Source: Sphingobium lactosutens DS20 (GTDB taxonomy: Bacteria > Pseudomonadota > Alphaproteobacteria > Sphingomonadales > Sphingomonadaceae). From it: a stretch of 64,000 nt of DNA. How positions within the stretch are numbered: the first letter of the stretch is position 1; every line of letters begins with the position of its first letter. This document shows, piece after piece, positions 16,957-42,219 of this stretch. The stretch spans positions 124,001 through 188,000 of the forward strand of contig NZ_ATDP01000075.1 in assembly GCF_000445105.1 (NCBI RefSeq), in the 5' to 3' direction. The position numbers and the translations under genes are program-made. The notes beneath the pieces are model-generated. The model was not told the DNA's origin. It saw only the letters and a program-made list of their open reading frames with translations, and did not search any database.

Positions 16957-18066
16957 TTAGGCTGCAACTGGTAGAGGCTCGGGATCGCGAACCTCAGGAA
17001 AGGCTTCATACGAGCGGCCGGTGCGCCACATGTTCAGCATGATGACGGCAAGTTTCCGGGCGACCGCAACTCGCGCCTTGGAAAACCCGATCGCCTCAGC
17101 CCGGTCCAGTCCCCAGCGCCTCAGCGCCGTATCATGCTTCTTGGCGACAGCCAGCATCACGGTTGCGGCACTGACCAAGTGCACGCGCGTCATGGGATTG
17201 CCCGCTTTGGTGATCCCGCCGTTCCGCGTACTATCGCCACTCTCGAAGATCTTGGGTGTTAGACCGAGATACGCGGCGACATCGGTAGACCGGCGAAATC
17301 GGGTCGGTTCCTCGATCGCGGTGAAGAACGAAACTGCCGTGATGCTGCTGACGCCAGGTATTTCGGTGAACCGCCTGCAAAGGTCATTGGACATCGCGAA
17401 ATCGTGGAGTTCACTTTCCAGGTTCACGATCTCAGTCCTGAGCTTCAGCGACAGCTCAAGGAGCGGCTTCATATGCTGGGTAAGATCATGGCCCGTCTCG
17501 GCCCTGACTTCCTCAATGGCGCGCTCCACATGGAATCGGAAGCGACTTGCGTTATGGGTCCGTTCCTTGATCCTAGTGCCATATACCCGCAGCATGGATT
17601 TTATCATCAGCTCTGTAGAGACGCGCTGCCGGACCATATTGTGCCGAGCTACCAATTTGGACCGCGTAGCGTAGCATTCGTTGCTCTTGATATGGACCTC
17701 AACGAGAAATCCGCGTCCCAGCCGCGCCACTTCGGCTATGCCCCGTGCGTCGTTCTTGTCGGTCTTGTTCTTCCTCAATTCGAGAAAGCGCCGCACGGCA
17801 AATGTGTCGTAAGCGTTGGCGTTATAGCCGAATGCCCGGAGGCCCTTCACGACCTGAAGGCTTGTTGAGCAGGCTTCCATGCCTATTGAGCTAACACCAT
17901 CGGGAAAATGCTCGACAAGCAGGTCCCTGATTTTGGCAGCTTTCGTCGGAAGTTCCTGCTGAATGAGGACTTTGCTGTTGCCATCGATTGCACATAGCGC
18001 GGTCGACGCAACGCCCGTATCAAGTCCAATCCAGATTTCTGGCTTCGAATTTTGCGACGTGGTCAT
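16957..18066 (-). CDS. IS110-family transposase
   Basis: A 369-aa recombinase. The N-terminal DEDD RuvC-like domain shows D16 (WIGLDTG), E64 (GMEACS), and D103/D106 (KTDKNDARG). The C-terminal transposase_20 domain carries ITEIPGVSSITAV-like EIPGVSSITAVSFF, AAYLGLTP and GNPMTRVHLVSAATVM, with a serine in the place expected for the catalytic Ser of the family. AGGGAG lies just before the ATG. The frame is open end to end, so it may be active. IS110 elements lack ordinary terminal inverted repeats, so the ends of the element are not marked. Confidence 0.93.
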   Translation of the reverse strand: MTTSQNSKPEIWIGLDTGVASTALCAIDGNSKVLIQQELPTKAAKIRDLLVEHFPDGVSSIGMEACSTSLQVVKGLRAFGYNANAYDTFAVRRFLELRKNKTDKNDARGIAEVARLGRGFLVEVHIKSNECYATRSKLVARHNMVRQRVSTELMIKSMLRVYGTRIKERTHNASRFRFHVERAIEEVRAETGHDLTQHMKPLLELSLKLRTEIVNLESELHDFAMSNDLCRRFTEIPGVSSITAVSFFTAIEEPTRFRRSTDVAAYLGLTPKIFESGDSTRNGGITKAGNPMTRVHLVSAATVMLAVAKKHDTALRRWGLDRAEAIGFSKARVAVARKLAVIMLNMWRTGRSYEAFPEVRDPEPLPVAA

Positions 18067-18250
18067 CAATGCTCCCTTTAGGCTACCCCTCACAGGCCGA
18101 GTGCGGAGTCCGCCGGGGCTCCAAAAATTACTTCGAGGTGGTAGCCTTCTCCGCGACCGCGAAGGGTCGGGGGTGGGCTGATGATGCCTTCACCTTATCA
18201 TAGGGTTAACAACGTCGTCGGGGTGTGCGTTGTTGGATAGCGGAGCAAGC
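18067..18250 (-). ncRNA. Candidate IS110 bridge-RNA region (5' noncoding end)
   Basis: The 180 bp before the transposase has no gene and several hairpin-forming stretches on the minus strand (for example around CCTTCGCGGTCGCGGAGAAGG-like sequence at about 18152-18172 and GGAGCCCCGGCGGACTCC at about 18105-18122). IS110-group elements are known to encode a target- and donor-binding bridge RNA from the noncoding end upstream of the recombinase. Position fits; the loops were not matched to target sequences, so this is a placement, not a demonstration. Confidence 0.35.
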
Positions 18251-18617: not shown

Positions 18618-19532
18618 CTACGCCGCCTGCTTCAACTTATCAGGGCTTGCCAGTTGGTGCAGATAGGCAACGGCGCGTTCGGCATGGGCGGCGGCTTGGA
18701 CAATGGCGCGGGTGTCGTTTTGCAGCACCTTGATCCAGCTTGCGATATAGCTGGCATGATCGGGGCGCGGCTCAATGCAAAGCCCAAGGTCGGCGGCAAG
18801 GAAAGCCGCGCCAAGCTCTGCACACAATTCCTCGCGGGCATAGCCTGCATCGCCCCATTTCTCGCGGCCAAAGCTGCGATCAAGGCGGCTCTCGTGGCGA
18901 GTCCAATGCACGGTTTCGTGGCCCCTCGTAGCGTAATATCCGTGGGCATCATGGAAGGCCGCGAAGGGCGGCAGCTGGATGCGGTCGGCTGACGGTATGT
19001 AGTAGGCTCTGTCGCCGCCGTGGTTCACGGTTGCCGGGATGCTGGCAAAGAATGCCTCGGCGGCTTCGATGCGCTCCACCTCCGGCGACGGTTCCGGCAC
19101 AATATGGAAACGCTCGGGCAAGCAGTCGATCTGCGCCACATTGAACACGGTGTAGGTTTTCAGGAAACGGAAGCCCTGTTCCCGATCCTCGCCGCTGGCG
19201 TTGTCATGCACAGTCTTGGTGCTGTCGCCATAATAGACCACGGACGCGCCATGCTCCCCCTTACGCACCTGGGCGCCCAAGGCTTGCGCCTGCTTGTAGG
19301 TCATCCATGACGGGCTGACGAAACCGGATGCCTGCGCCTCTATCCACAAAAGAAGAACGTTGATCCCTCGGTAGGGCTGGCCGGTGGCGCGCAAGGGGCG
19401 AGCCTGACCGGACTTGGCGATGTCACCGCCGCTCCACGGTTTCAGCCAGGGGCGGGTGCCTTGCTCAAGTTCGGCCAGGATGCGGTCGGTGATACGGCTG
19501 TGAGGGTCTTGCTTGCCGGTGCTCTGGGTCAT
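18618..19532 (-). CDS. ardC: ArdC-like antirestriction protein with zincin domain
   Basis: A 304-aa protein. Residues about 10-130 are the ArdC N-terminal ssDNA-binding domain (ITDRILAELEQGTRPWLKPW, PLRATGQPYRGINVLLLW, WMTYKQAQALG). Residues about 150-300 are a zinc metallopeptidase-like domain with HETVH at 205-209 (HExxH) and a downstream Glu in EELCAELGAAFL. ArdC proteins on conjugative plasmids protect incoming DNA from host restriction. GGGAG precedes the ATG at 19532, chosen because the long upstream frame extension is low-complexity. It sits with a sigma factor and nucleotidyltransferases, a cargo block common on proteobacterial mobile elements. Confidence 0.9.
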   Translation of the reverse strand: MTQSTGKQDPHSRITDRILAELEQGTRPWLKPWSGGDIAKSGQARPLRATGQPYRGINVLLLWIEAQASGFVSPSWMTYKQAQALGAQVRKGEHGASVVYYGDSTKTVHDNASGEDREQGFRFLKTYTVFNVAQIDCLPERFHIVPEPSPEVERIEAAEAFFASIPATVNHGGDRAYYIPSADRIQLPPFAAFHDAHGYYATRGHETVHWTRHESRLDRSFGREKWGDAGYAREELCAELGAAFLAADLGLCIEPRPDHASYIASWIKVLQNDTRAIVQAAAHAERAVAYLHQLASPDKLKQAA

Positions 19533-19684
19533 TGCTGTTACTCCCTTCCAATCCGCGCAGCGGGTCATGCCGCGCATGACCCCTGCCGACCCGGCGAGGG
19601 GCGGAGAGAGTGGGGGCAAGGTCCGGTGCCGGGGGTGGTGCGGGCGCAGCGAAGCGAGCCACGGCCCCAAAGCGGCACCTTGCA

Positions 19685-19713
19685 GGGAGAGAGAGGCAGA
19701 GCCTCTTTCTCCC
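19685..19713. other. Strong hairpin between the sigma-factor gene and ardC
   Basis: GGGAGAGAGAGGC (19685-19697) pairs with GCCTCTTTCTCCC (19701-19713), a 13-bp stem with one mismatch and a 3-nt loop. It lies in the 242-bp spacer between two minus-strand genes. There is no T-tract on the minus strand, so it is not a standard terminator; it may stabilise mRNA or attenuate. Confidence 0.5.
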
Positions 19714-19774
19714 TCCGGAACTTTGGAAAGGTTGCGCCGCTGGCGGCGCTCAATCGTGAGCTTAGGAAGCCATT

Positions 19775-20287
19775 CTACAATCGATGCACAGAAGCCGCCC
19801 TGCGGCACCGTGCCAGGGCGCGCGTCATGTGATACTCGACGCCACTGCAGCCGATGCCGACCTGCTCGGAGATTTCCGCATAGGTCATGCATTTCAGCCG
19901 GTGCATCAGGAAGATGCGGCGGGTCTTGCGCGGCATGGCCAGCAGTGTCCGCCGATAAACCCTCCGGATGTCTCCCTCCTCAATCCCCCACGTCTGCTCG
20001 GGAGGCGCCGGTGCATCCCGACCCTCGTCGATGGCACAGGTGACGATATGTGCTGACGCTCTGCGGCGCGCACGGCTGATAAGAAGGTTGCGCGCACATC
20101 GGGTGAGATAGGCTGGCGGATTTTCGATTTGTTCGGCCACTCCCGCAGCGAACAGCTTCACGAAAACCTCCTGTGCGAGGTCGGGAGCATCGTCCCCTCC
20201 TACGCGCTTTCGGAAGAAGCGCAGGACCCGTGCATATTCAGCTCGGTAAAGAGCCTCAAACGCGGCCATAGAACGGGCGGGGATCAT
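19775..20287 (-). CDS. ECF-type RNA polymerase sigma-70 family factor
   Basis: A 170-aa protein. Region 2 shows YARVLRFFRKRVGG and DAPDLAQEVFVKLF (the DxxQExF core). Region 4 has the helix-turn-helix MTYAEISEQVGIGCSGVEYHMTRAL. It resembles FecI-like sigma factors in size, but no FecR-type anti-sigma gene is adjacent. The ATG at 20287 overlaps the stop of the upstream nucleotidyltransferase gene (ATGA), so translation is coupled. It may drive transcription of element genes; that is inference. Confidence 0.88.
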   Translation of the reverse strand: MIPARSMAAFEALYRAEYARVLRFFRKRVGGDDAPDLAQEVFVKLFAAGVAEQIENPPAYLTRCARNLLISRARRRASAHIVTCAIDEGRDAPAPPEQTWGIEEGDIRRVYRRTLLAMPRKTRRIFLMHRLKCMTYAEISEQVGIGCSGVEYHMTRALARCRRAASVHRL

Positions 20288-20772
20288 CGCTTTGCCTCCC
20301 GACGTTCGCGTTCGTTCAGCGGCGCGTCGCGCGAGGCGCGGTAGAGCGTGATGCCGGCTTCGATGCGGTCTAGGATGAAGGTGTCGCGCTCGATCCTGGC
20401 GATGCGGATGTCGGCCTTGGAGAATATGTCGAGATCGACTGCACACCGATTGCCCAGTTCGCTGTCGATGACATCGCGCACCCGCTGCCAGCAACGCTCA
20501 TCCTTGAAGGCAGGATGGTTGACGACGATCCAGAATTCATAATCCGAGAACTGGATTGTATGCTGGTCCTCATACCATGATCGGCGCGCATAGGGACCGA
20601 TCAGGACTATCCGCCTGATCTTTCCTGGTCTGGGCGCCTGAACCTTTTCGGGCTCGAAGCAGGCGCGAATGATGCGCGCTATGCGTTCGATCTCATTCTG
20701 TTTGCGCCAGACCAGATGATTGACGCGCGCCATCACCACTTCGCGCGCGTAAACGTCGGTAGGAGGTGTCAT
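20284..20772 (-). CDS. Nucleotidyltransferase-fold protein with an altered active site
   Basis: A 162-aa protein related in fold and neighbourhood to the MNT domain of the gene at 20990. The segment IVLIGPYARRSW aligns with the canonical GS motif LFGSHARGDW, with Pro for Ser, and FSDYEFWIVV replaces the usual SDxDLLV, with Glu for the second Asp. The catalytic site may therefore be weakened or altered. No HEPN domain is present. The start is uncertain (20802, 20772 or 20733; no clear ribosome-binding site). It is coupled to the sigma-factor gene by an ATGA overlap. Confidence 0.75.
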   Translation of the reverse strand: MTPPTDVYAREVVMARVNHLVWRKQNEIERIARIIRACFEPEKVQAPRPGKIRRIVLIGPYARRSWYEDQHTIQFSDYEFWIVVNHPAFKDERCWQRVRDVIDSELGNRCAVDLDIFSKADIRIARIERDTFILDRIEAGITLYRASRDAPLNERERREAKR

Positions 20773-20989
20773 TTGCAGCTCGCACACCAGCGGTCCGCGC
20801 ATTCGGGCGCGGATTGTGCAAGCGGTGTCCGCTGTGCGCCGCTATCGCGGCTTCCAGCAACTGCCCGACCTCGGTGGCCGGACCTACATGATGCCTGGCG
20901 GGGTTATCCCGGAGATGGCCGCCAGTCCTTCCATCCCGTAGCGCCGAATATGCCAGGCATGCAAAGACCGGGCAAGCTGCCTGGCGGTA

Positions 20990-21913
20990 TCATTGCTTCC
21001 CGGAGGCGGCTTCCAGTTCGGCGATCCGTTCCGAGCAGACCTGATGGACAACGCGGCCCAGTTCTTCGACCCGTTCACCAAGCCAGGCCAGATCTTCTGC
21101 GCTGATCCGGTAGTGCCTGGAATAGCGGGCCTTGGTGTAGGCCTCCTTCAGCTTCTGGAACATGGCGCGCTCGCGGCGCGAGGTTTCTGGCCAGATGCCG
21201 TAGAGGCGGCGGTCCAGCCCTTCGGCCAGCGACCGCAGGAAGGCGATATTGTGGTTGTATGGCGCGTAAAACGTCAGCGTCAGCAGCAAGCACGAGTAGA
21301 GCCGTTCTGAAGCCTGATGCATCAGAAAGGCCGCTTCCTTGGGCCGACTCTGCTTTGCTAGTTCTCGCGATGTGTTGAGCCAAACAACCGCGCTTGGATA
21401 ATACTCCTCAAAATATTCCTTCACCGCTGCCAATGCCTGATCCGGCGTCTTGGGCTTGGGTTCACGCAGCTCCCGGTCGTCGGCTTCGTACAGCGCGATC
21501 CCGTCTTTGGCGACTTCCATGAAGAAGACGCGGCCATGGGCGAGGCCGTCATTCACCTCATGCAGCGAATGGACGATGAAATTGACTGGCGTGCGCAGAG
21601 TCTTCTCGATCGTATAGGCACGGATCAGCCGCTCCTCGGCTTTTGCCCAGTAAGCCGCCCGGTCGGTCAGTTCCTTTTGGCTGACAATGACGAGGATATC
21701 GTAGTCGGACTTGTACTGGTTCGCCGACAGCGGCGCATCCACCCAGTCACCCCGCGCATGGCTGCCAAAGAGGACGACCTTCAGGATGCGCGCACCCTTC
21801 CGAGGGCCCGTGGCATTCCCGATCGCGTCGTGGAACTCCTCGAAAATGACCTCAACGATGCGCTCAAGCTCGCGCTGCTTTGCCGCAGGAAGATGGTCGC
21901 TATCGGTACGCAT
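20990..21913 (-). CDS. Nucleotidyltransferase-HEPN fusion (MNT-HEPN type)
   Basis: A 307-aa two-domain protein. Residues about 12-150 are a minimal nucleotidyltransferase with VLFGSHARGDW (G50-S51) and YKSDYDILVIV (D70, D72). Residues about 160-300 are a helical HEPN domain (AAFLMHQASERLYSCLL, KARYSRHYRIS). In HEPN/MNT toxin-antitoxin pairs, the MNT protein AMPylates and silences the HEPN RNase, and here the two are fused. The role could be toxin-antitoxin, abortive infection or nucleotide-based regulation. The ATG at 21913 was chosen as the start since the upstream frame has no family match. Confidence 0.85.
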   Translation of the reverse strand: MRTDSDHLPAAKQRELERIVEVIFEEFHDAIGNATGPRKGARILKVVLFGSHARGDWVDAPLSANQYKSDYDILVIVSQKELTDRAAYWAKAEERLIRAYTIEKTLRTPVNFIVHSLHEVNDGLAHGRVFFMEVAKDGIALYEADDRELREPKPKTPDQALAAVKEYFEEYYPSAVVWLNTSRELAKQSRPKEAAFLMHQASERLYSCLLLTLTFYAPYNHNIAFLRSLAEGLDRRLYGIWPETSRRERAMFQKLKEAYTKARYSRHYRISAEDLAWLGERVEELGRVVHQVCSERIAELEAASGKQ

Positions 21914-22261
21914 AGGCGGGATTCTTTCTGCATTCGCCGTTGTTTGGCAAGCGCAATCGCTGCGAGTCCAACAGCGTGGCCGGACATCCAGCACGCCATC
22001 GGAAAGACCAACGTTCGCCGCAAGCGTTGGTACAACGTGGTCAATTGCGCATCGCCGCTGCATATGCTTTCGCAGCGAGGCAGATTTTAGATGACGTTCG
22101 CGCCAGTTCGCTTCGGACCAACATGCTCGGGTTAAGCCCCTGAACTTCCTGAACAAAATAACATTTTGAGAGCTAAACCACTGAGTCTTAAGAAAGATTC
22201 TTGATGAGATCGCATCGCCGGTGTATGATTTCTTTAGCGTAACTAGCTCGGGAAGGCAGTT
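21914..22261. other. Divergent intergenic region with promoter(s)
   Basis: About 350 bp between the MNT-HEPN gene and the methylase operon. Its right half is A+T-rich, unlike neighbouring coding DNA, and holds the strong promoter at 22201-22229. CAACG-T/A-rich inverted sequence around 22007-22040 (CAACGTT near AGCGTTGG) may be a control element for either direction. No gene is seen. Confidence 0.5.
22201..22229 (+). promoter_or_regulatory. Sigma-70-type promoter for the methylase/nuclease-like operon
   Basis: TTGATG (22201-22206), a 17-bp spacer, and TATGAT (22224-22229), both close to consensus. The expected transcription start near 22236 gives a leader of about 25 nt before the TTG start codon at 22262, with GGAAGG in between. 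Confidence 0.7.
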
Positions 22262-25213
22262 TTGACGTCCGGCACCGCCGCCTCGGCTGGATTTGCAGAT
22301 CGACTGGAGCAGTTGCTCCGGGCGGTCGGACTGCGTGGCGACCCCGACTTTTTGGAGAATGCCGACGAACTAGGGGCGATTCAGGTGGCCCAGCCGGTCC
22401 GTTCGGCGTTCGAGCGGATGGGCCTCGTCGGCGCGTTCTGCCCCATGTCCTCCCTTGGATCCGGATCGGTCCGCCGCGTCCCCGTCCTCTACGTAGCCGC
22501 CGCCTTCTCCGGGAATGCAGACGCCGTGCACAGAGCCGTTTGGTCTCAGTCCGTCGCGCCGCTGCTCCTGATCGCGACCGAGAACGGATTCGAGATCCGC
22601 AACGGATTCGATTACCGGAAGCGGACGCTGTGGCCATGGTCTGAGCTCGACGTAGGCTTGCCCGCCGCGCTCGCATCCCTAACAGCCGCCGCGCTTCGGA
22701 GCTCGGCGTCGTGGCGAGACTTCCACGTTCCGACCCGCGTCGACGAGCGTCTCGGCCGCGCTGTGCGAGCTCTTAGCGACGCCACCGTGCGTCGGGACCG
22801 CCGGCTTCGCGACCGGCGCGACCTGGTGAACGCGCTAGTCGGTCGGTTTCTCTACCTCTATGTGCTCGCCGATCGCGGTGTCATCGACCAAGCCTGGATC
22901 GATCATCTGACGGTCGACGGTCGGCCGGCATGTCCGAACGTGGTGCTGGACGAGAGGGTCGAGGACGGACGGCCGCCGCCTGCCCGGTGGCCCGCCATCC
23001 AGACGTGGCGGCTCTTCGATGCCATCGACGAACAGCTCAACGGCTCGATCTTCCCGATCGGAACGACAGACCGCAAGCGTGTTGGCCCGGAGACGCTCCA
23101 CTATATCCGCCGCGTCCTCCGAGCGGACGACGCGCAAGGCGACCAGATTCAGTACGGCTTCCTCGACGTCGACTATGCGACGATCCGGACCGAGACCATT
23201 TCCGCTCTATACGAGTGCTTCTTCGAACTCGAGAATGGCGAAGGCAAGAAAGAGGACGGCGCGTTCTACACGCCCCCGTTTCTCGTCGACTATGTTGTCG
23301 ACGAGATGGACCACCTGCACCCCTTCAATGCCAATTCGCTTGTCGTAGATCCGGCATGCGGGTCGGGAGCATTCCTCGTCGCGGCCTTTAGGCGCATCGT
23401 GGAGCAGCAGCGTTCGGATGGCCACGTCCTGTCTGCCCAACTACTGCATGAGACGCTCGCTCGGTGCGTCGCTGGTTTCGAGATTAAGCAACAGGCAGTC
23501 AACGTCGCCAGGTTCAGCCTTTATCTCACGATGCTTGACTACCTGCCCAGATTTACGCTGCGCGATCTGCCGCCGACGGCGGACGGGCAGCGCCTGTTCC
23601 CAAAACTCGTGAGCCGTGTCCGTACACAGGATGCCTTCAACGTCCTGCCCTGGGATCTGCGCCGCAAGGCGACGCACGTCCTTGCCAACCCTCCATGGAC
23701 CAAGGTCCCGGAACCTTCCAAAGCAGACACCTACCGTAAGCGCATTGCAACGCCGAAAAATGGCAGCCTCGTCTCACCTAAGGACGGCATGGCGGAGGTG
23801 TTCTACTGGCGCGCGCTGCGCGACCTGTGTGCGCCTGACGGCTACGTGGCGATGGTCCTTCCGACCAAGTCCTTTATCGCTCCGTCCGCGACCGCGTTTC
23901 CGGCAGCACTCTCCGAGGCCTCGCGTATCCTCGGCATTACCAATCTCGCCCACTTCCGCGAAAGGCTGTTTGCAAACGCGCGGGAGGCCGCAACGGTCGT
24001 CTTCGCGACCCCACACGCGCCCGAGCCGCTCGATTGGACCTGGCGCTACTCGCCGAAGCCTTCCAGCCAGCCCGTCGGCCGGGATGGCGTCCCGTGGGCA
24101 ATCGTGGTCGATCGAGGGCAGGTGGAGCGCTTCCGGCAGGCCGACCTTGTCCTTCCGGGACACGAATGGTTCCGGGACCTTATGCTGCAGCCGCTCGATC
24201 GCCAACTGGCGTCAGTGCTGTCGAGCCCGCGCAACGGCTCGGCCCGGTCGCTGGGAGCGTTTATGAGCGCCGCATCGATTGACGTAAGGCGGGGTGGTAG
24301 CCCTAAAGAGACCGGTCTCCCCGCAGACATGCTCCTCAACACCAAGTCCAACCATTATCGCCTGCGGTTGGGGGACCTTCCTGGCACGGAACCCAACTAC
24401 GTGCTTCCGCCGGAACTTCTGACACAGGTGCCGGTGTCCTTCCGGACGGCTTTCGAGGGCCCGATGCTCCTCATGTCGCGCGCGCAATCCGACTTCCTGC
24501 CGGTCGATGGGCCAGCAGCGTACTCCTCGTCGCTGCTCGGCATCCACTTCACAAGTGGGATCCTCTCCCGGCAGGACAGGATCGCCGCACTCCGCGAGAT
24601 CGGGGCGTTCCCGAGGACGAGCGTCGGCAGATACCTCCTCGCCCTCTTTGGCCGGCTCTGGGTCTTCGACCAGCGCCGGTTCGAAGCAAAGGACCTGCGC
24701 AGCCTTCCCTTCCCATATCATGACATGCAGGATTTGCTCACAAACCCCGTTACCGGCTTCGACGACAAGGCCTTCACTTCGTTCTGCCGGATTCGCTTCG
24801 GTCAAAGCGCGCTTTTCGAGGCCGCCGTGGCTGAGCATCACGATCTGCGTGAAGGTTATCAGGACGGCCGCCGGCCGGCCGATGGCTCCAATCCGACTGA
24901 CGACGACGGACGTGATGCCTATGTGACCGTCCTGCGGGAGCAGATTGCGACGCTGCTACCGGAAGAGATTAGCGTCGAATTCGGCGATGCCGATGCCGGC
25001 AGCCTTGCCTACCGCATCACTATTGGTGGAGGAGCGGCTCCACCTGCACCCAGACACCGGCAGCAGATCGGCGAGGAGGCGGCGCTTCGGCTGGTGCGCG
25101 GCTCGACTAGCACCATAATCGACATAATTAAGCCTGACGTCCGGTCTGCCTGGACAGTCGAGCGTGCCTATGCGGACGCGCTCGCCGCCGTAAGGGAGAT
25201 CATGGCCGCTTGA
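22262..25213 (+). CDS. N6-adenine DNA methyltransferase, large multidomain
   Basis: A 983-aa protein. The methylase core has the SAM motif I VVDPACGSGAFLVAA at about 361-375 and the catalytic NPPW at about 476-479, with an EDGAFYTPPFLVDYVVDE segment before it, as in Type I HsdM and Type IIG/BREX methylases. Residues 1-200 are an unassigned N-terminal region, and about 560-983 include target-recognition-type sequence (LPGTEPNYVLPPELL, SSLLGIHFTSGILS). No PD-(D/E)xK motif is evident. TTG start with GGAAGG upstream. Its stop overlaps the TTG start of the next gene, so the two form one operon. Probably the modification half of a restriction or related system. Confidence 0.85.
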   Translation: MTSGTAASAGFADRLEQLLRAVGLRGDPDFLENADELGAIQVAQPVRSAFERMGLVGAFCPMSSLGSGSVRRVPVLYVAAAFSGNADAVHRAVWSQSVAPLLLIATENGFEIRNGFDYRKRTLWPWSELDVGLPAALASLTAAALRSSASWRDFHVPTRVDERLGRAVRALSDATVRRDRRLRDRRDLVNALVGRFLYLYVLADRGVIDQAWIDHLTVDGRPACPNVVLDERVEDGRPPPARWPAIQTWRLFDAIDEQLNGSIFPIGTTDRKRVGPETLHYIRRVLRADDAQGDQIQYGFLDVDYATIRTETISALYECFFELENGEGKKEDGAFYTPPFLVDYVVDEMDHLHPFNANSLVVDPACGSGAFLVAAFRRIVEQQRSDGHVLSAQLLHETLARCVAGFEIKQQAVNVARFSLYLTMLDYLPRFTLRDLPPTADGQRLFPKLVSRVRTQDAFNVLPWDLRRKATHVLANPPWTKVPEPSKADTYRKRIATPKNGSLVSPKDGMAEVFYWRALRDLCAPDGYVAMVLPTKSFIAPSATAFPAALSEASRILGITNLAHFRERLFANAREAATVVFATPHAPEPLDWTWRYSPKPSSQPVGRDGVPWAIVVDRGQVERFRQADLVLPGHEWFRDLMLQPLDRQLASVLSSPRNGSARSLGAFMSAASIDVRRGGSPKETGLPADMLLNTKSNHYRLRLGDLPGTEPNYVLPPELLTQVPVSFRTAFEGPMLLMSRAQSDFLPVDGPAAYSSSLLGIHFTSGILSRQDRIAALREIGAFPRTSVGRYLLALFGRLWVFDQRRFEAKDLRSLPFPYHDMQDLLTNPVTGFDDKAFTSFCRIRFGQSALFEAAVAEHHDLREGYQDGRRPADGSNPTDDDGRDAYVTVLREQIATLLPEEISVEFGDADAGSLAYRITIGGGAAPPAPRHRQQIGEEAALRLVRGSTSTIIDIIKPDVRSAWTVERAYADALAAVREIMAA

Positions 25214-25989
25214 CTACAACGACATTCCATTCGCGCGTGCCGGGCGGCGGCACTGCAGGCGGTGACGCGCGGGCCAAGGGCTGGGAGCGCTTTGCAGCTA
25301 TGGCATGCAACGCACTGCGGGACGCGGCGGACATCCTTGGCTCGTATGGACTGGGATTCGACCACACAGCGCTTGACGGATACTGGGCGAGCGGATCGCG
25401 TAAGGCGAAGGGCTCGGACGTCGTACTGCCCATGGAGAACGGAATCACCGACCCTCTCGTTCGCGCGCTAGAACTCGTCCGGGCTGCCGCTCCGCCGGAG
25501 CATCTCATCAGCCGATATCAGGTCTGCTTCGTCCAGCAGCAGCCCCGCAAGAAACAGAACAAGCTTGGCTCGAAAGCCTACACGACCGACATCCAGGTCA
25601 GATCGCTCGTCGTGCCGGACCTTGATCTGCGCATCGAGGCTAAGGTGCTCTTTGGCGGAGGGGACGTCGCCGCGTACTGCGGAAAGAACGGCCTTCTCCG
25701 CTTCGCCGACGCCGAACCCTACACAGACCAGCACGTAGGGATGATGCTCGGCTATTCCGTCCGCCGCGATGACGCCCACTGGTTCAAGGAAATCCAGAAG
25801 ACCGCCACGTCCTTGACCGCCGTCGGGCCGTTCGAGATGCTCGATCTCGATGGAGGTCGTGTCACCGGCTCGCTGGTCAACTCGCATGCGACCGGGCAGG
25901 TGCTCGTCCTCCACATGCTCCTGCCATTCGAGACGAATCCGTCCGCGCGGGCGATCGACGCGGCTCCAAAGGAGAAAAAGCCCAAGTGA
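25210..25989 (+). CDS. Hypothetical protein, possible PD-(D/E)xK restriction endonuclease partner
   Basis: A 259-aa protein translated from a TTG that overlaps the methylase stop. LRIEAKVLFGGG contains E143-A-K145 preceded by D127, a spacing (D-x15-ExK) compatible with a PD-(D/E)xK nuclease core, and YQVCFVQQQPRKKQN precedes it. The tail is lysine-rich. The tight coupling to an adenine methylase makes a restriction partner the best guess, but the motif is short and the family is not recognised. Confidence 0.6.
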   Translation: MTTTTFHSRVPGGGTAGGDARAKGWERFAAMACNALRDAADILGSYGLGFDHTALDGYWASGSRKAKGSDVVLPMENGITDPLVRALELVRAAAPPEHLISRYQVCFVQQQPRKKQNKLGSKAYTTDIQVRSLVVPDLDLRIEAKVLFGGGDVAAYCGKNGLLRFADAEPYTDQHVGMMLGYSVRRDDAHWFKEIQKTATSLTAVGPFEMLDLDGGRVTGSLVNSHATGQVLVLHMLLPFETNPSARAIDAAPKEKKPK

Positions 25990-26230: not shown

Positions 26231-27076
26231 TCACAGATGCTCACCTATATGCCCAATGAGCGTCTTGCCCTCGAACTCGGCATGCTCCGCACTCGAGAAA
26301 TAGATGCGGTGGAAGTAATATTCGGCGTCGCCGGCGCGGGCCGAGCAATGGAGTTTGATATGGGGCTCGCACAGGATCCGGATTGTGCCGTCCTTGCCCG
26401 CGAACTGGAAGGTCAGTGCATCCCTGCGGTCCGCGTCCCCCTCCATCGACGTCTCGTAACCTGACATCGCGGTGAATGCCTTCATGCACGCCTGCGTGGT
26501 AGGCTGTTCCATGCACTCTGGCATGTCGTCGGCAAGCGAGACGAGCGCGGATACAATCACCGCGACGAAGTCGTTCAGATTGCCTTTAAAGGTGTCGAGA
26601 CAGCCGGGAAAGCGCTTGCTGAAGACGAAATCCGGGAACGCTTGGCGGCATTCCATGAGAAAGCCGTCGCGATCGCCCTGATATGCCTTGAGTTGCTCGC
26701 GCACTACCGCGATCCATTGGTGAAGCGCATTGATGCTCCGCGCCCCTTCTTCCGCCCAAGGTCCAAGCTCACCGACGGCGCCCAGCGTCTCAAGCTCGGC
26801 CAAGGCGGTTGACACGGTCCTGTCGATAGCAAGCTGCAGGAGAAGCTGCATGTCCCGGCCAATACCCTCGGTGCTTTCGAAGAGGATCTGGTAGAGAGCG
26901 ATGTCGGGAAGGACCTCAGCATAGTAAAGGTCTTCGTCCTTGTGGATCGCGTACCCGGCTTCGCGTAGTTCGCCGTCGAGCACAAGCAGCGCCTCTATAC
27001 GCTGGACCAGCGCTTCGCGCGTCGCATCTGGTGGCGGATCATAACGTCCAAGGCTATGGATGAGGCTCGCCGGCAT
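26231..27076 (-). CDS. Unrecognised third protein of the DUF262/DUF3696 operon
   Basis: A 281-aa acidic protein. Its first 200 residues look helical (LVQRIEALLVLDGELREAG, DMQLLLQLAIDRTVSTALAELE). The last 60 residues form a distinct beta-rich unit: FQFAGKDGTIRILCEPHIKL, then YYFHRIYF and finally KTLIGHIGEHL. The H-R-I-Y-F / G-H-I-G-x-H-L ending recalls C-termini I associate with small proteins of phage-defence loci, but no name can be given. It follows the ATPase gene by 9 bp on the same strand. Confidence 0.75.
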   Translation of the reverse strand: MPASLIHSLGRYDPPPDATREALVQRIEALLVLDGELREAGYAIHKDEDLYYAEVLPDIALYQILFESTEGIGRDMQLLLQLAIDRTVSTALAELETLGAVGELGPWAEEGARSINALHQWIAVVREQLKAYQGDRDGFLMECRQAFPDFVFSKRFPGCLDTFKGNLNDFVAVIVSALVSLADDMPECMEQPTTQACMKAFTAMSGYETSMEGDADRRDALTFQFAGKDGTIRILCEPHIKLHCSARAGDAEYYFHRIYFSSAEHAEFEGKTLIGHIGEHL

Positions 27077-27085
27077 GGTGGTAAG

Positions 27086-28258
27086 TTAGCTCTTGGCCTG
27101 TGCGGCCAAGGCTCGACGGGCCTTCATCATCTCAGCCAGGTCGGCACCCTGCTGATCGAAAAAGCCGGGTGGCCAGCTCGTGAGCTCGGCCGCCTTATCC
27201 ATCGTGATCGGGTGGAGAATCGGCTGCCCCGGCCCTTCGCCGAGCGACAGGAACAGGAACCTCGCATCGTCATACGGGATAATGTCTCGCAAAGCGGCGA
27301 GGCGGACACCGTTCAGAACATTTTCGCTATGGGTCTCGACAAGAACTTGGACGCCCGATGAGGCTACCGAGGCAAGGAAGATCCCGATCGCGGTCTGGGC
27401 GCCGGGGTGGAGATGGGCCTCGGGGTTCTCGACAATCAGCATCGATCCCGGAGCCGCGAGCAGCCCGCTCACTACTACCGGTAAGGCATAGCTGATCCCG
27501 AAGCCGGTATTGGCCGGGGGTAACGCTCTCGCCGTTGCACCCCGCCGGCCGATCGCCATCTGTACACGATTGAGATCAGGATGGGGCGTGGTGAAGATTT
27601 GCGCTCCCGGTACGAGGCGCCCCATCCAGGCCTCGAGCTGGATCCGGAAGAGGCTGGAATCAGCCACGATGCACAACGGCTTCGCCACCATCCGGCCCTC
27701 GGCCTCTGCCTGAGAGATCGCAAACGCCGTGAACTCGCCTGCGTACCCGGTGGAGATGAAGGGTTGGTCGGCCATGGGTTGCAGATCCCGCGGGCCAACC
27801 CGCTCCGCGACGAGGTAATGAAATTCCTGCCGAAAGATCGGAAGGGCGCCGGCACGCGCGAGCAGGTCCCCGGGCGCCTCAAGGCAGACGATGCTCGTCG
27901 TCGGCTTGGTGTTGCTCGCCTCGAAACTACAAAGGACCGGTTCGGTGTCGTCGCCCGACACCCCCAGGACAACGATGTCGGATTCGATGTCTGCGTTTGT
28001 GAGGGTAGCGCTGTTGCCTAGGTTTAACCGATACTCATCGTTGAGCTTGATGCTCAGCAGGGGGTGTCCTCCATCGGTGCCGCTGACCGCTCCGGTTAGG
28101 AGGCGTGCTCGATCTCCGGTCTGCCGGAGGAGAAGCAGCGACTGGATCACGCTCGACTTGCCGACCCCGTTTCCGCCGCTCAGCACGGTCAGCCGGTTCA
28201 GCGGTATCCGCTCCTGCTGAAAGCATTTGAAATTGGTCAGATGGACGTCGCGGATCAT
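27086..28258 (-). CDS. AAA-family SMC/OLD-like ATPase with DUF3696-type C-terminus
   Basis: A 390-aa ATPase. Walker A is GGNGVGKSS (about 28-36) right after the typical opening IRDVHLTNFKCFQQERIPL. Walker B is MLIVENPEAHLHP (about 273-285) and the switch His is in VLVETHSENVLNG. VAERVGPRDLQP at 150-161 and the pattern of the C-terminal third match AAA_15/DUF3696 proteins. No TOPRIM domain is present, unlike true OLD nucleases, so another subunit should provide the effector. The ATG overlaps the stop of the DUF262 gene (ATGA), and the 281-aa gene follows by 9 bp. Confidence 0.88.
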   Translation of the reverse strand: MIRDVHLTNFKCFQQERIPLNRLTVLSGGNGVGKSSVIQSLLLLRQTGDRARLLTGAVSGTDGGHPLLSIKLNDEYRLNLGNSATLTNADIESDIVVLGVSGDDTEPVLCSFEASNTKPTTSIVCLEAPGDLLARAGALPIFRQEFHYLVAERVGPRDLQPMADQPFISTGYAGEFTAFAISQAEAEGRMVAKPLCIVADSSLFRIQLEAWMGRLVPGAQIFTTPHPDLNRVQMAIGRRGATARALPPANTGFGISYALPVVVSGLLAAPGSMLIVENPEAHLHPGAQTAIGIFLASVASSGVQVLVETHSENVLNGVRLAALRDIIPYDDARFLFLSLGEGPGQPILHPITMDKAAELTSWPPGFFDQQGADLAEMMKARRALAAQAKS

Positions 28259-29616
28259 CCGATATGCTCCGCGCAGAGGGCCCGGGCTTTCTCGAACGCG
28301 TAGCGCAGCCGGCGCCGATCATTGGTGCCGAATGAGACGCTGTCATAATAGTCGGCGTCGCTATCGAGCTCGTGGGCGATCAGCCCGGCGAAGCTTTCCG
28401 CCTCGACGGTCCGGACGTCCTCTTCGTCCCGCTCCGCCAAAACAACAGACCAAGTCGTGAAGAGCGAGTTGTTCATCAGCCTGCGACGTGCGCCCGGAAG
28501 CAGATCCTGCGGGCTGCATTTCCGGAAGGCGAAGGCTCCGAAGAGGTGCGCGCTGTTGCGCATGCTGCGCTCGAAGGCAGGGACAAGTTGATCGAACAGG
28601 CGGGGGTCTCGGTTTATCGTTTCGATCGTCTGATCTAGGAACCGCTCCATGTTTCCCAAATAGGGCGCCTGACGTTTTAGGTCTGCAAGCCGAAACGCCA
28701 CGAAGCGGAGCGCGATTTCCTGATCCTGCATGCGCACGGTGCCAACGCTCGAGCAGGTCGCCTCCAGGAAATCGGGCGATCGGGACAGGCTGTGTAGGAG
28801 ATGCCTCGTCTCCGGCGACGACATGCAGTTGCGGATCTCCTGAGCGTTCAGGGGGCGCCCGCCTTGGTTGATGCGCTTGAAGATGTCGAACTTCACGTCC
28901 GCCGGCGTCTGCGGATCGATGATGTTCATCATGATCTGCGTCTGCATTATCCGCTTCCGGAAGCGCTGGTCGATGCATCGGCTCGGATCGTCGTGACGGA
29001 AGACCTTGCCCTCCTCTTCCTTAAGATATTCCAGGTCGCGCAGGCGGAGCTCGTTGTCGAGGAACTGCTTGATGACTGTCAGCCGCTGCAGACCGTCAAC
29101 GACCTGCAGGCGTCCGGCGTGATCCTGTGCGAGGTAGAAGACCGGCAGCGGGATGCGCAGCATGATTGATTCGATGAGGCGCGACCGCGCGCCGATATCG
29201 GTCCATACGAACTGGCGCTGGAAATCGGGCGACAGGTTGATGTCGCCGTCCTTGATCATGTCATAGACGAGGCTGATGTTAAATGGTTTCGTGTCGACCC
29301 GGATGAACTCCGGATCGTATGGGAAGGGCTCGGGTGAATCATCTTCGAATTCCTCCGTCACCTCTATGCCCGCAGCCTCCTGAATCGACCGCTCAGCCAG
29401 TGTTTGTATGAAGACTTCGCCTATCTCACCCGCCGTTGATCCGATATCCTGGGACTTTTCGATTTTGACGATCCGGCCAGCTTCACCCGTCGTGATGGTA
29501 AGCTCATGCGGCACGTCTTCTGCGATCCAGCGGGACAAGCCGTCGGGCTGCGACTGATCCAGCCGCAGCGCGACCAATGCTAGTTCTCCTGAAGCGAGGC
29601 GGATGGGAATCTGCAA
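28255..29616 (-). CDS. DUF262 (ParB/GmrS-like) protein
   Basis: A 453-aa protein. Residues about 112-270 are DUF262: SPDFQRQFVWTD, then VVDGLQRLTVIKQFL (canonical DGQQRxTT with Leu for Gln) and IFKRINQGGRPLNAQEIRNC. DUF262 is a ParB-fold nucleotidase-type domain found in GmrSD and several defence systems. The first 100 residues are a separate acidic domain (FEDDSPEPFPY linker). The C-terminal part (SMRNSAHLFGAFAFRKC, EKARALCAEHIG) resembles the helical region that follows DUF262 in related proteins; no HNH (DUF1524) motif is seen. First gene of the operon. Confidence 0.88.
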   Translation of the reverse strand: MQIPIRLASGELALVALRLDQSQPDGLSRWIAEDVPHELTITTGEAGRIVKIEKSQDIGSTAGEIGEVFIQTLAERSIQEAAGIEVTEEFEDDSPEPFPYDPEFIRVDTKPFNISLVYDMIKDGDINLSPDFQRQFVWTDIGARSRLIESIMLRIPLPVFYLAQDHAGRLQVVDGLQRLTVIKQFLDNELRLRDLEYLKEEEGKVFRHDDPSRCIDQRFRKRIMQTQIMMNIIDPQTPADVKFDIFKRINQGGRPLNAQEIRNCMSSPETRHLLHSLSRSPDFLEATCSSVGTVRMQDQEIALRFVAFRLADLKRQAPYLGNMERFLDQTIETINRDPRLFDQLVPAFERSMRNSAHLFGAFAFRKCSPQDLLPGARRRLMNNSLFTTWSVVLAERDEEDVRTVEAESFAGLIAHELDSDADYYDSVSFGTNDRRRLRYAFEKARALCAEHIG

Positions 29617-29855: not shown

Positions 29856-32800
29856 TCAATAATCGCCATCTTCATCCTTATCGCCGCCGTCATCTTCCTC
29901 GTCGGCCTCGACACCCATCAGCCCGAGCAGCCCTCCAGCCGCACTTGTCCCGGCGCCGGGTGCCTTTCGCTCGTCGTCCGAAGGCTCCGGTAATTCAGCC
30001 GACGTGAAACACGGCCCGGCAACGATCTTGTCCAATTGCGCCTCAAGATCCGCTTCCATGGCCAAAGTTGCTTCGAGCACCCAGAGGAGTTCAAGCAATT
30101 CCTCGCTCATTCGGGCTGTCCAGCGTTCCGGACGAATGAGGTCCAAGGGTGAAGATTTCTTCCCCGCACGCTTTTTCATGCGATAGCCGAGCCAGGACTG
30201 AACCACTTTAAGGCCCGAAACCTCGAACTCCCAGACTTCGGCCGTAACCGGTCCAATTCGGCCAGTCCCGATAAAGATTTCGCCCGAGTCCGGATCGAAG
30301 CTGTAAGTCTCAGGGTATTGGGTTGGGCTGTCGGAAACCCCCTTGATGATCTTGGCTGAACCGGCTGACACCTCGTCGCCACGGTCATCGCCCCTGAACC
30401 GCTCGGCGTAGGTGTGTAGCCAGATCAGCTTGCGGCCTAGCTTCGCCGTGTCCGCAAAAATCTTGCTACTCTTCGTCAGCGGGACGCGCGGACCAGGAGT
30501 CTCGAGTTCATTCCAGAAGCGCCGGGTGTATGACTGCCCTCCCAACGCCGCATAGACATAGGCCGCAAGGTCTTCTGGTGTGACCTCGGTATCGTATTCC
30601 GTCGCAAGCGCTGCCAAGAGGCCCATAGTTATATTCGGATCGGTCCCGGCTGCATCACGATACAGCGGGAAAACGTCTTTCCCGCCTCGACCGCAAAAGA
30701 CGTCAAGATCGGGAAGCTCTGAGGTGGCAGTCATTGCCGCACCCACACCAAGCATCTTTGTCATAAGTGAAGCGAAGAACAGGTTGGCTTCACCTCTGGC
30801 CTTAACCAATGGTGGCCGGATATAGTCAGCAAGCCGATTATCAATCAGCGCGTATTGGCGGTCGAATGATCGATAGCAATAGCGGCCGACCTCAGGAGCG
30901 GGATCGCCTATCACAAGGTTCGCGAGAGCAGTGCCGGCCACGCCTTCGAAATTCGAATATGATTTGGAGATCTTCCGATCGCGTGATTCCTTAAAAAGCT
31001 TCTTCCGCGCATCGATGGGTGCCGAACATAGCTCTTTCCAACGCCGGCCAAGCGTCTCGGCGTTTTCACCAATGGGCCAAACTCTTTTGAACTGGGAGCC
31101 GCTGTGCTGCCAAGGGAAGATGTTGGCCAGTTCAGGCCAGAAAAAATAGGCAGCATTTGATTTCGGATAAAATGGGTCAAGCCAGCCATCTGAGACGGAT
31201 TCCCAAGGAAAGCTGTCTATTTTATCTAGAGCGTCCAGTGCGAGGAGTTTGGCGGCTCGATTGTCTGCCTCAACCCGCACATATTTGACATTGGCAGCCT
31301 TCGCGGTGTCCCTTGCTCCGGATCGAACGCCGATTGTGATAGCGACCGGGGTCTGAATGTTGAAGACATTGGGCGTTTTTCGCGTCCCGAGTAGATCGCC
31401 CCCAAGATTGATCACATAAATTTCGTCGAACTCGCGCCGCATATGTTCGCGCATACCCACGAAGGCCGGGCCGCCGAGAAAGCTGGACGCGGTGATGAAG
31501 GTCACAATGCCGCCGCAGGTCTGCTGCTCGAACAGTCGCCAGAGCGCCCAACGCCAGAAATAGACATAATCATTGTATAGGTTCTTCAGGTGGACCCCGG
31601 CTCCAGCTTTCGTCGCAGGATCAGTGAAATCCTTGAAAATTGGGCGTTCCCCTTGCTCTTCAACCTTGGCTCCACCTTCAATCTGGTCGCCAAATCGGAC
31701 CCAGCCACCTTTACGCTTGGTGGAGGTGTCTCCATCCTCGATATGTTGCCGATCGTATGGAGGATTGCCGAGGCAAACGAGGATTTCGCCACCCTGCTTC
31801 ACCTTTCGTGCAGCCTCATGCTCCTGAGTCAACGCCTTGTGTGTCAGGTCCAGCCCGCCAGGAGGAGCCTTGTTCGGACTTGCAAGCGTGTCGGCGAGAT
31901 AGATGTTGAGCCGCTTGTCTAGCTTCTCTTCAGGTTCCCCTCCGGCTTTGGCGTTATTCATCGCGCCTTCGAGCGCCTGTGTCAGCCTGAGGTGGGCAAC
32001 GGCATAAGGTCCGACGAGTATTTCGAAGCCATGCATATTCTCGGCCATCTGCCGGGCACGTGCGGGCACGGCGCCTGGACCGGATCGAGTACGAACTTTC
32101 TCTAGCCCGTGTTTGACTGCTGCGACGGGATAGGTGCCGGTGCCGACGGCCGGGTCTAGAAAGACCACGCCGTCATCAGCGAAGCCGAGCTTCTTGCTGA
32201 ACCGCTTTTCCAGCAACTCGCTGGCCAGCCGCACCTGCAATTCAACGACTTCGCGAGGGGTGTAATAGACACCGTAATCCTTGCGCAGCTTCGGATCGTA
32301 GGCGGCGAGGAAGTCCTCGTAGAAATAGAGCCACAGATCGGGCTTGGATTTCAGGAAGTCGTGCGGGTTGAGCCCCTCCAGCGACCGCTGGAGCATTTCG
32401 AATCCGACCGACAATTCCTTTCGGGCGTCCGGCTGACCGAGCAGTTCAAGCGTGCGGGCAAGGAGGCCGTTGTTCTTGTCGAGCGTCTTAGCTGCTTCGG
32501 CTGGGTCGAGCTTGTTTGCCCCTGAAAGCCGGGCCAGGAGCATCGCGTAAGTGACTGTCTGGGCGTAGGCATCAGCGAATTTCCCCTTATCTGAGTCCGG
32601 GAAGAAGAACTGTCGCCACTCGTTTGCGAGGAGTTCTACCGCTGAGCCAGACTGATCAAGGGCGTTCTCGACCTCCGAGCGTAGGAAACGGCTTAGGGGG
32701 GCGAGATATTTGGCCAGGCTGGATGGGTTTTGGGGGACATTAGGGGTCCAACCGAGAAAATCCCGGAAGAGTCGCTCCAACCCATCGGCATCATCCTTCT

Positions 32801-33281
32801 GGACCGCAGCCTTGCCTTTATCGGTGGGATCGTCGTGCAACCGCACAATCGGCTGGCTGTCGGGGCGCTCGCCCGTCCGGTAAAGCGCCCACTCTTGCCC
32901 ATCCGTATAGATGAGGTTGGGCAGACCCTTCAGCTTCTCCCATTGCCTCTTGTTATGATCGCCCTTTAGTTTTGGCGCATCGGCACCGAGGCCCGGGGCT
33001 TTCAGTTCGATGTAGCCACAGATCAGCCCGTCGACATAGACCGCGATGTCGGGGCGGACCTTGTGATCAGAGAGATGAGCTTCGGTTCGCGTTTCGACCG
33101 TCAGGCCGTATGAGACGCCAGCCCCTGCGAGGAGATCGGCAACCACTGGCTTGAGCTGATCTTCCGGAGAAGCTGAACCGGGAAGGGCGAACTTGGCCTT
33201 TAGCTTGTCAGCAAATGCTTCTAATTCTCCCAGATTCACTGATAGCCCCGTTTGCCACACCCAATGATTGGTAGCTAGCAC
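29856..33281 (-). CDS. Type IIG/ISP-like single-chain restriction-modification enzyme
   Basis: A 1141-aa protein. N-terminal nuclease: VRPDIAVYVDGLICGYIELK has D78 and E92-L-K94 (PD-x13-ExK). A helical connector follows, then an adenine methylase with the DYGVYYTPREVVE segment, motif I VVFLDPAVGTGTYP (about 372-385) and NPPY at 506-509. The C-terminal half (about 600-1090) should be target recognition, and the tail is Asp/Glu-rich. It cuts and methylates from one chain, and if ISP-like may translocate; no SF2 helicase motifs were noted. GTG start at 33281 with GAGGGA upstream; GTG at 33239 is an alternative. Its adjacent genes are unrelated. Confidence 0.88.
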   Translation of the reverse strand: MLATNHWVWQTGLSVNLGELEAFADKLKAKFALPGSASPEDQLKPVVADLLAGAGVSYGLTVETRTEAHLSDHKVRPDIAVYVDGLICGYIELKAPGLGADAPKLKGDHNKRQWEKLKGLPNLIYTDGQEWALYRTGERPDSQPIVRLHDDPTDKGKAAVQKDDADGLERLFRDFLGWTPNVPQNPSSLAKYLAPLSRFLRSEVENALDQSGSAVELLANEWRQFFFPDSDKGKFADAYAQTVTYAMLLARLSGANKLDPAEAAKTLDKNNGLLARTLELLGQPDARKELSVGFEMLQRSLEGLNPHDFLKSKPDLWLYFYEDFLAAYDPKLRKDYGVYYTPREVVELQVRLASELLEKRFSKKLGFADDGVVFLDPAVGTGTYPVAAVKHGLEKVRTRSGPGAVPARARQMAENMHGFEILVGPYAVAHLRLTQALEGAMNNAKAGGEPEEKLDKRLNIYLADTLASPNKAPPGGLDLTHKALTQEHEAARKVKQGGEILVCLGNPPYDRQHIEDGDTSTKRKGGWVRFGDQIEGGAKVEEQGERPIFKDFTDPATKAGAGVHLKNLYNDYVYFWRWALWRLFEQQTCGGIVTFITASSFLGGPAFVGMREHMRREFDEIYVINLGGDLLGTRKTPNVFNIQTPVAITIGVRSGARDTAKAANVKYVRVEADNRAAKLLALDALDKIDSFPWESVSDGWLDPFYPKSNAAYFFWPELANIFPWQHSGSQFKRVWPIGENAETLGRRWKELCSAPIDARKKLFKESRDRKISKSYSNFEGVAGTALANLVIGDPAPEVGRYCYRSFDRQYALIDNRLADYIRPPLVKARGEANLFFASLMTKMLGVGAAMTATSELPDLDVFCGRGGKDVFPLYRDAAGTDPNITMGLLAALATEYDTEVTPEDLAAYVYAALGGQSYTRRFWNELETPGPRVPLTKSSKIFADTAKLGRKLIWLHTYAERFRGDDRGDEVSAGSAKIIKGVSDSPTQYPETYSFDPDSGEIFIGTGRIGPVTAEVWEFEVSGLKVVQSWLGYRMKKRAGKKSSPLDLIRPERWTARMSEELLELLWVLEATLAMEADLEAQLDKIVAGPCFTSAELPEPSDDERKAPGAGTSAAGGLLGLMGVEADEEDDGGDKDEDGDY

Positions 33282-38224: not shown

Positions 38225-38592
38225 GGCCGCTTCTCCCGCGCGAGGCCCCGCTGGCGATCGTAGGCGGCGGTGATCTCCTCGGTGAGGATCGCGTCGCTCT
38301 TGCGCGCGCCGCTGGCGGCACTGCGGGCGTAGCAATAGGCCGCGCAGGCGGTGAACAGGGCGCGGTCCAGCATGTGCTCCACGTCCACGATGCGCGTACC
38401 GACCGATGCCAGTTCGGTCACGATCTCGCGGGTGTCGATTGTGCTGCCCGTCCCTTGAACGAGGGCCGCGAGTCCCGTGTCCACGACGCGGGCGAGCATG
38501 GCATATTCGCTCAATCCGCGTTGCCGGGCAAAGCCGGCAAGGGCGCGGTGCTGGGCCGGAGAAAGCCGCACGGTCTGGGCACGGGCGCTCAT
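38221..38592 (-). CDS. Relaxosome accessory protein (TrwA-like, probable ribbon-helix-helix)
   Basis: A 123-aa protein. The N-terminal VRLSPAQHRALAGFARQRGLSE resembles a ribbon-helix-helix DNA-binding start, followed by a helical region. It sits immediately before the coupling protein with an ATGA overlap, as TrwA does in IncW plasmids, where it binds oriT and represses the trw operon. The RHH assignment is by pattern and position only. Confidence 0.65.
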   Translation of the reverse strand: MSARAQTVRLSPAQHRALAGFARQRGLSEYAMLARVVDTGLAALVQGTGSTIDTREIVTELASVGTRIVDVEHMLDRALFTACAAYCYARSAASGARKSDAILTEEITAAYDRQRGLAREKRP

Positions 38593-38799
38593 CGCACCGC
38601 TCCAGCCGAGATGCTATTCGCCATCGCGTGAAATGGCAGATTTGCGCTGTTTTGGCCAAGCCGCGTTTGGCGAGATGCTATCCGCATCCCGTCAAACCCG
38701 CAGAAAAGCTGGATGCACCCGTGCGTGAGGTGTGTATCTGAATTGTCGGCTCGATGCGTAGCATCGCAGCCCTGCAACCTTGCCGTTGCGGCGACCATA
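38593..38799. other. Candidate origin of transfer (oriT)
   Basis: A gene-free 207 bp upstream of the TrwA-like gene. It holds a direct repeat CGAGATGCTAT at 38607-38617 and 38671-38681 (64 bp apart; similar sequence continues after each) and a perfect inverted repeat CGATGC-GTA-GCATCG at 38752-38766. Repeats for TrwA-type binding and a hairpin near nic are usual parts of a MobF oriT; the nic site was not matched. Confidence 0.5.
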
Positions 38800-42145: not shown

Positions 42146-42219
42146 TGGAGGCCCGAGCCGGAATCGAACCGGCGTGCACGGATTTGCAGTCCGCTGCGTA
42201 ACCACTCCGCCATCGGGCC
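42146..42219 (-). tRNA. tRNA-Cys (anticodon GCA)
   Basis: Complete 74-nt cloverleaf including encoded CCA. Acceptor GGCCCGA / TCGGGCC, anticodon loop CTGCAAA, T-arm GCCGG-TTCGATT-CCGGC, and discriminator T, as required for cysteine tRNAs. The anticodon is at 42185-42187. It is the integration target of the adjacent island; the integrase-duplicated segment regenerates its 3' end, so the gene stays functional. Confidence 0.97.

Follow-up and report, generated by a model that had tools for sequence, protein, structure and literature searches.

A Type IIG-like adenine methylase followed by an overlapping gene for a predicted nuclease: a candidate split restriction-modification system in Sphingobium lactosutens and distant bacteria

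What is the small gene that overlaps the end of a large adenine methylase gene in Sphingobium lactosutens DS20, and do the two work together? Both genes lie in a 64,000-nucleotide stretch of contig NZ_ATDP01000075.1 (assembly GCF_000445105.1, positions 124,001 to 188,000, forward strand), called hereafter the window. A sequence-only reading of this DNA had proposed an adenine methylase coupled to a small nuclease-like protein. We find that the two genes form a unit that is widespread in very different bacteria, and consider it rather probable that this unit is a “split Type IIG” restriction-modification system, in which the methylase would choose the site for a separate nuclease. Inspection of the open reading frames (ORFs) confirmed both genes as first described, with their positions, their lengths of 983 and 259 aa, their TTG starts and their 4-bp overlap. 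TTG is the first start of both ORFs, and the shared stretch is TTGA. The main elements are:

22201-22229, forward strand: candidate sigma-70-like promoter, TTGATG-17-TATGAT (9 of 12 consensus matches)
22250-22256, forward strand: Shine-Dalgarno-like GGGAAGG, 5 nt before the TTG start of the methylase (from the sequence)
22262-25213, forward strand: N6-adenine DNA methylase, 983 aa, of Type IIG-like architecture (Pfam, PADLOC, AlphaFold2, structural matches)
25210-25989, forward strand: partner, a predicted PD-(D/E)XK nuclease of 259 aa from an unnamed family (conserved residues, fold model)

The promoter stands above chance, since two sites as good were found on both strands of 501 bp, versus 0.2 expected from shuffles, but its description as near-consensus was too generous for 9 matches out of 12.

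Is the pairing of these genes conserved? Methylase relatives were collected among species genomes by an alignment search, and the best 80 of at least 341 were analysed. Their titles span Alphaproteobacteria, planctomycetes, Bacteroidetes, Dehalococcoidia, Desulfobacteraceae, Acidobacteria and cyanobacteria. A profile of the partner matched the gene that directly follows the methylase in 70 of these loci, only one of which was contained in the profile (locus L058, of the same sequence as L010). Of the ten loci that gave no match, seven stop at most 310 bp from a contig end, and one of these (L076) retains a partial partner (E 1.5e-10). Two more, L083 and L095, hold only methylase fragments, with no partner matched. 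In the last, L023 (5898-6581), a long methylase ORF is present and the partner is cut off before its ExK motif and continued, as judged by eye, by LysR-like sequence; it has the appearance of a locus in which the nuclease was lost and the methylase kept. A variant layout was seen in L063 (1406-7445), where the partner is preceded by methylase-like ORFs of 932 and 1047 aa in tandem.

Searches in the reverse direction gave the same picture. Partner profiles had matches in 10 genomes of a sample of 385 and in 7 of another sample of 398 (the samples overlap, and both include the window's own genome), and a methylase C-terminus lay directly upstream, on the same strand, in all 14 distinct non-self partner loci. 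A tblastn search with the methylase found 32 plasmids, of which 14 were inspected; a partner-profile match was present downstream of the methylase in every one, although the methylase ORF was shorter than usual in L124 and L127 and split in L006, and another ORF lay between methylase and partner in L124. The gene pairing is therefore not due to chance. The possibility that the methylase is an orphan in other genomes was dropped, its partner being linked to it in both search directions (70/80 and 14/14 loci). The partner starts at an overlap of exactly 4 bp in 28 of 70 loci and within 20 bp in 69 of 70, counts that lean towards the 4-bp value because the start nearest to such an overlap was chosen.

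The partner family could be reached only through the methylase and its alignment. A single-protein search with the window partner returned nothing beyond itself in genome contigs, plasmids, phages and viral contigs, and only its own genome among 396 genomes of its order. Similarly, the window methylase had no match in viral contigs as a single query, and a distant partner relative had none in the phages collection; the alignment search did find one 58.7 kb IMG/VR record (L021, 5938-9689) with a regulator-like ORF, the methylase and the partner. Within one family, 7 of 105 genomes had a partner match. Three genomes from two genera (L136, L137 and L138) share fully identical sequences of both proteins, an indication of recent transfer. 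No description of the pair was found in the literature searched, which consisted mostly of the openings of abstracts, with subscription papers and REBASE outside it, and none was seen in the passages available from PMC4389544 and PMC12839542.

What kind of methylase is it? Its identity as an adenine methylase was borne out by Pfam (N6_Mtase, 5e-13) and by a profile of 74 methylase relatives, which found CamA first in the Protein Data Bank (PDB; E 1.5e-29), followed by M.BseCI, Type I M subunits, BrxX, DrdV, BsaXI and MmeI. The best PADLOC models were those of Type IIG enzymes (REase_MTase_IIG, 1.5e-30). An AlphaFold2 model was obtained with a mean predicted local distance difference test score (pLDDT) of 85.9 and a predicted template modelling score (pTM) of 0.90. 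It was superposed on CamA with Z 21.9 (root mean square deviation, rmsd, 4.0 over 450 residues), on BrxX with Z 17.9 (rmsd 4.4, 581 residues), on MmeI with Z 17.7 (rmsd 6.4, 564 residues), on DrdV with Z 17.2 (rmsd 5.3, 493 residues) and on BpuSI with Z 16.3 (rmsd 10.5). Its parts are as follows:

22262-22711, forward strand: N-terminal alpha/beta domain, residues 1-150, located where Type IIG enzymes have their nuclease (order of secondary structure)
22712-23188, forward strand: helical connector, residues 151-309 (predicted helices)
23189-24061, forward strand: methyltransferase core, residues 310-600 (Pfam, profile and structural matches)
23348-23374, forward strand: S-adenosylmethionine (SAM) motif DPACGSGAF, residues 363-371 (alignment of 74 sequences)
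23687-23698, forward strand: catalytic NPPW, residues 476-479 (alignment of 74 sequences)
24062-24811, forward strand: target-recognition domain, residues 601-850 (structural match to CamA, M.BseCI and MmeI)
24812-25210, forward strand: C-terminal domain, residues 851-983 (alignment)

In the 74 aligned methylases, D363, G367, S368, G369 and F371 of the SAM motif are invariant, as are N476 and P478 of the NPPW motif. The recognition domain is most variable at about residues 655-750. Structural matches hardly reach the C-terminal domain, which contains the conserved residues K957 (70/74), W964 (71/74) and D972 (70/74). At the other end, the match to BrxX and to several Type I M subunits starts at about residues 158-162. 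The first 200 residues had been described as unassigned, and Pfam indeed gave no match there; they consist of the small alpha/beta domain, which occupies the position of the Type IIG nuclease without having its residues, and then of the connector. No conserved set of acidic residues and lysine, as expected of a nuclease, was found in residues 1-130 of the 74 methylases, the only residues that stand out in the domain being P74 (72 of 73 letters) and W94 (73/74). An active nuclease in this domain was consequently dropped. The order of helices and strands in the model, together with DrdV alignments that begin at methylase residues 30 and 47, suggests that the domain may be a decayed PD-(D/E)XK fold. 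Sequence kinship between this domain and the partner, also considered, received no support (hhalign probability 0.3 %).

The residues missing from the methylase have counterparts in the partner, where 71 family members were aligned:

25435-25437, forward strand: E76 (71/71 partners)
25588-25590, forward strand: D127 (70/71 partners)
25636-25644, forward strand: E143-A-K145 (E and K each 71/71)
25912-25914, forward strand: H235, outside the usual nuclease motifs (71/71 partners)

D127, E143 and K145 are the D-x15-ExK site that had been proposed from the single sequence, and this site thus proved to be conserved through the family. The spacing from D to E varies from 12 to 26, and Y156 is present in 70 of 71 members. 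Conservation of E76, D127, E143 and K145 is the signature of a PD-(D/E)XK nuclease. A fold model of the partner (pLDDT 81.6, pTM 0.83) has a helix-strand order that fits this family. Its best structural match was BamHI (Z 7.1, rmsd 5.0, 167 residues), followed by OkrAI (Z 6.7), BstYI (6.6), BglII (6.2) and Bse634I (6.2), and restriction or related nucleases made up 20 of the 25 listed structures with Z of at least 5.0. The predicted fold thus agrees with PD-(D/E)XK without being decisive, and the case for a nuclease is carried more by the conserved residues than by the model. Motif and fitting fold model together make the nuclease-like nature of the small protein, as first proposed, a sound prediction. 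A role of the partner as recognition subunit was dropped, conserved catalytic residues having been found instead.

Databases were of little help with this family. The window partner alone was matched by no entry of Pfam, PADLOC, NCBIfam or PHROGs, and by nothing meaningful among PDB sequences. Among the 71 members, PADLOC and PHROGs each matched none, Pfam gave weak matches to PDDEXK_9 in five and to DUF1340 in one, and NCBIfam gave single stray matches in two. Of the 14 plasmid records inspected, 13 call the partner a “hypothetical protein” and one calls it a “Fis family transcriptional regulator”.

Does the nuclease recognise its own site, or does it depend on the methylase? In three pairs of closely related loci, the methylases are nearly uniform outside the variable part of the recognition domain, at about residues 655-750. 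For L114 and L115, identity was 0.97 in the methylase core and fell to 0.30 in the lowest 30-column window, located in the recognition domain, whereas the partners were 0.88 identical, with a lowest window of 0.63. For L034 and L035, the corresponding values were 0.89 and 0.30, again in the recognition domain, versus 0.79 and 0.60 for the partners. For L090 and L100, they were 0.84 and 0.20, in the same domain, versus 0.68 and 0.50. In all three pairs, part of the recognition domain has been replaced and the nuclease sequence has changed much less. The simplest reading is that the choice of target lies with the methylase and is adopted by the nuclease. The methylase would modify an adenine within the site picked by its own target-recognition domain; the separate PD-(D/E)XK nuclease would be translated from the overlapping start; and, by binding the methylase, it would form a complex that cuts DNA upon meeting an unmethylated site. 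Protection against phages would presumably be the outcome.

Several results weigh against this reading. Two of the swap pairs have their lowest partner window (0.63 and 0.60) in the C-terminal part of the partner, so that some covariation of this part is possible; it also varies in a pair that has no swap, L005 and L064. Over 4371 pairs, partner identity agreed slightly better with that of the recognition domain (0.374) than with that of the catalytic core (0.312), with partial values of 0.131 and 0.012 respectively, and this general statistic therefore does not favour a sequence-blind nuclease. For 20 non-overlapping close pairs, divergence of the recognition domain and of the partner gave rho values of 0.18 to 0.31 (p 0.19 to 0.43), a weakly positive correlation that is underpowered either way. 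The partner is as big as self-sufficient Type IIP enzymes. As to its fold, no structural match reached Z 8, the caution limit of the tool, NF90/NF45-type proteins account for five of the 25 listed structures with Z of at least 5.0, and Foldseek gave no match to the model at E of 0.001 or below. In the same 4371 pairs, partner identity agreed with the other parts of the methylase at 0.404 for the N-terminal domain, 0.393 for the C-terminal domain and 0.349 for the connector, the partial values for the two terminal domains being 0.236 and 0.191. This slightly better agreement hints, no more, that the partner may dock at the terminal domains.

The strongest alternative is an orthodox Type II pair, in which the partner by itself both reads the site and cuts it, the methylase only protecting it. 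The size of the partner (203-255 aa in 70 relatives), similar to that of BamHI, BglII and EcoRV, which are among its nearest structural matches, fits such an enzyme, as do the faster variation of its C-terminal part and the agreement of its identity with that of the recognition domain in the all-pairs comparison. However, the recognition domains of the swap pairs fall locally to 0.20-0.30 while no partner window is below 0.50, and a single profile suffices to match the gene after the methylase in 70 of 80 loci from different phyla. For restriction enzymes that recognise their own site, one profile matching across phyla is unusual. We regard this alternative as unlikely, though worth serious consideration.

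In a second alternative, the pair is a methylation-sensitive defence whose nuclease responds to something other than the methylase's site: modified phage DNA, DNA ends, or loss of methylation leading to self-killing. Proteins encoded just upstream of the methylase are of interest here. Thirteen were searched against Pfam, and in five (L034, L056, L065, L082 and L097) an S24 peptidase with a LexA or CI DNA-binding domain was found, which fits damage-linked control; moreover, the window pair adjoins other defence systems. Against it, a same-strand ORF of 80 aa that ends close to the start of the methylase is lacking in 42 of 89 loci (in some of which this start is near a contig end), and no extra sensor domain was matched in the partners. 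It appears quite improbable. The least probable alternative by our estimate, a methylase acting mainly as epigenetic regulator beside a partner that is inactive or has another role, can draw on CamA, an orphan methylase, being the closest solved relative of the core, but it conflicts with the retention of E76, D127, E143 and K145 in 70-71 of 71 partners and with the finding that, among 80 loci, the partner is missing only where the contig ends, where the methylase itself is a fragment, or through truncation (L023).

The other upstream proteins were more diverse. One matched MerR_1 (L036) and another was just under the cut-off (L024), and six had no Pfam match at E 0.01 (L002, L003, L005, L004, L059 and L081). 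In the window, no regulator gene (among ORFs of at least 80 aa) was seen before the methylase on its strand. The 42 of 89 loci lacking an ORF there led us to abandon the idea that a conserved upstream regulator defines the system as its third gene. As a separate observation, LexA- or CI-type repressors stand directly before the methylase in distant phyla, and damage-linked control of restriction is possible in these loci.

In the window, the pair is cargo of an integrated mobilisable element (16349-42219), in which the following were recognised:

16349 and 42153: 16-bp repeat of the tRNA end
16957-18093: IS110 transposase
18618-19892: ArdC anti-restriction protein
20284-20802: second nucleotidyltransferase-like ORF (by eye, no Pfam match)
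20990-22156: nucleotidyltransferase-HEPN (MNT-HEPN) fusion adjoining the pair (Pfam)
26231-29616, strand opposite to the pair: NsnC, NsnB and NsnA (E 3.6e-79, 1.5e-94 and 1.2e-113), models which we take to represent the Menshen system
29856-33281: second single-chain Type IIG/ISP-like enzyme, 1141 aa (Type_ISP_C 7e-76), in which no helicase domain was matched
33606-36371: TrwC-type relaxase
36368-38659: TrwB/TraD-type coupling protein
40750-41979: integrase, beside tRNA-Cys
42146-42219: tRNA-Cys

To return to the split Type IIG reading, a broader form of it can be held only tentatively, at just under even chances: the pairs would constitute an unnamed pan-bacterial class of two genes, in which a Type IIG-like methylase whose N-terminal domain is dead recruits a small PD-(D/E)XK nuclease that does not itself recognise a sequence, and specificity shifts by replacement of the recognition domain only. 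Such a class would follow a Type I-like logic without translocase or third subunit, and would illustrate how restriction enzymes pass between the fused and the separate state. Should the site of the nuclease indeed be dictated by the methylase, exchange of one domain could suffice to make or predict new cutting specificities, and the system could be found by using the nuclease family as its marker. Since the partner is mostly annotated as “hypothetical protein” and the best PADLOC models for the window methylase are of single-chain Type IIG enzymes, a widespread restriction system may easily be counted as a lone enzyme.

How does the pair compare with known systems? With Type I and with PglX/BrxX of bacteriophage exclusion (BREX) it shares a related methylase core and the connector. 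Unlike Type I, no translocase (HsdR) and no separate specificity subunit (HsdS) were found beside the methylase among the window neighbours scanned, and unlike BREX, neither PglZ nor BrxC was among them. The methylase was also below the cut-off of the BREX_2 PglX model (44.5 bits versus 400), and the flanking genes in the window are MNT-HEPN and NsnABC; the earlier statement that the layout is not a standard Type I or BREX set is thus supported for the window. CamA and M.BseCI share the methylase core plus recognition domain, but lack the N-terminal 300 residues, because their chains align from about residues 305-340 of the model; we know of no nuclease partner of CamA. BamHI/BglII-like Type IIP endonucleases are the best structural neighbours of the partner model, with no sequence match to the partner. 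For HVO_A0006/HVO_A0237 of Haloferax volcanii, a passage of PMC4389544 proposes as possible a Type IIG enzyme split into nuclease and methylase proteins; in contrast to that case, the nuclease here is a distinct conserved family with a fixed place after the methylase gene. The closest likeness is to Type IIG enzymes (BpuSI, DrdV and MmeI/Type IIL), in which N-terminal domain, connector, N6-methylase core and recognition domain follow in the same order in one chain. Unlike in these, the nuclease is encoded by a separate, overlapping gene, and the conserved catalytic set is in this partner, whereas the N-terminal domain of the window methylase has none (74 methylases). The pair is not a member of Type IIG as defined, because its nuclease is a separate chain; we read it as working most like a split Type IIG enzyme.

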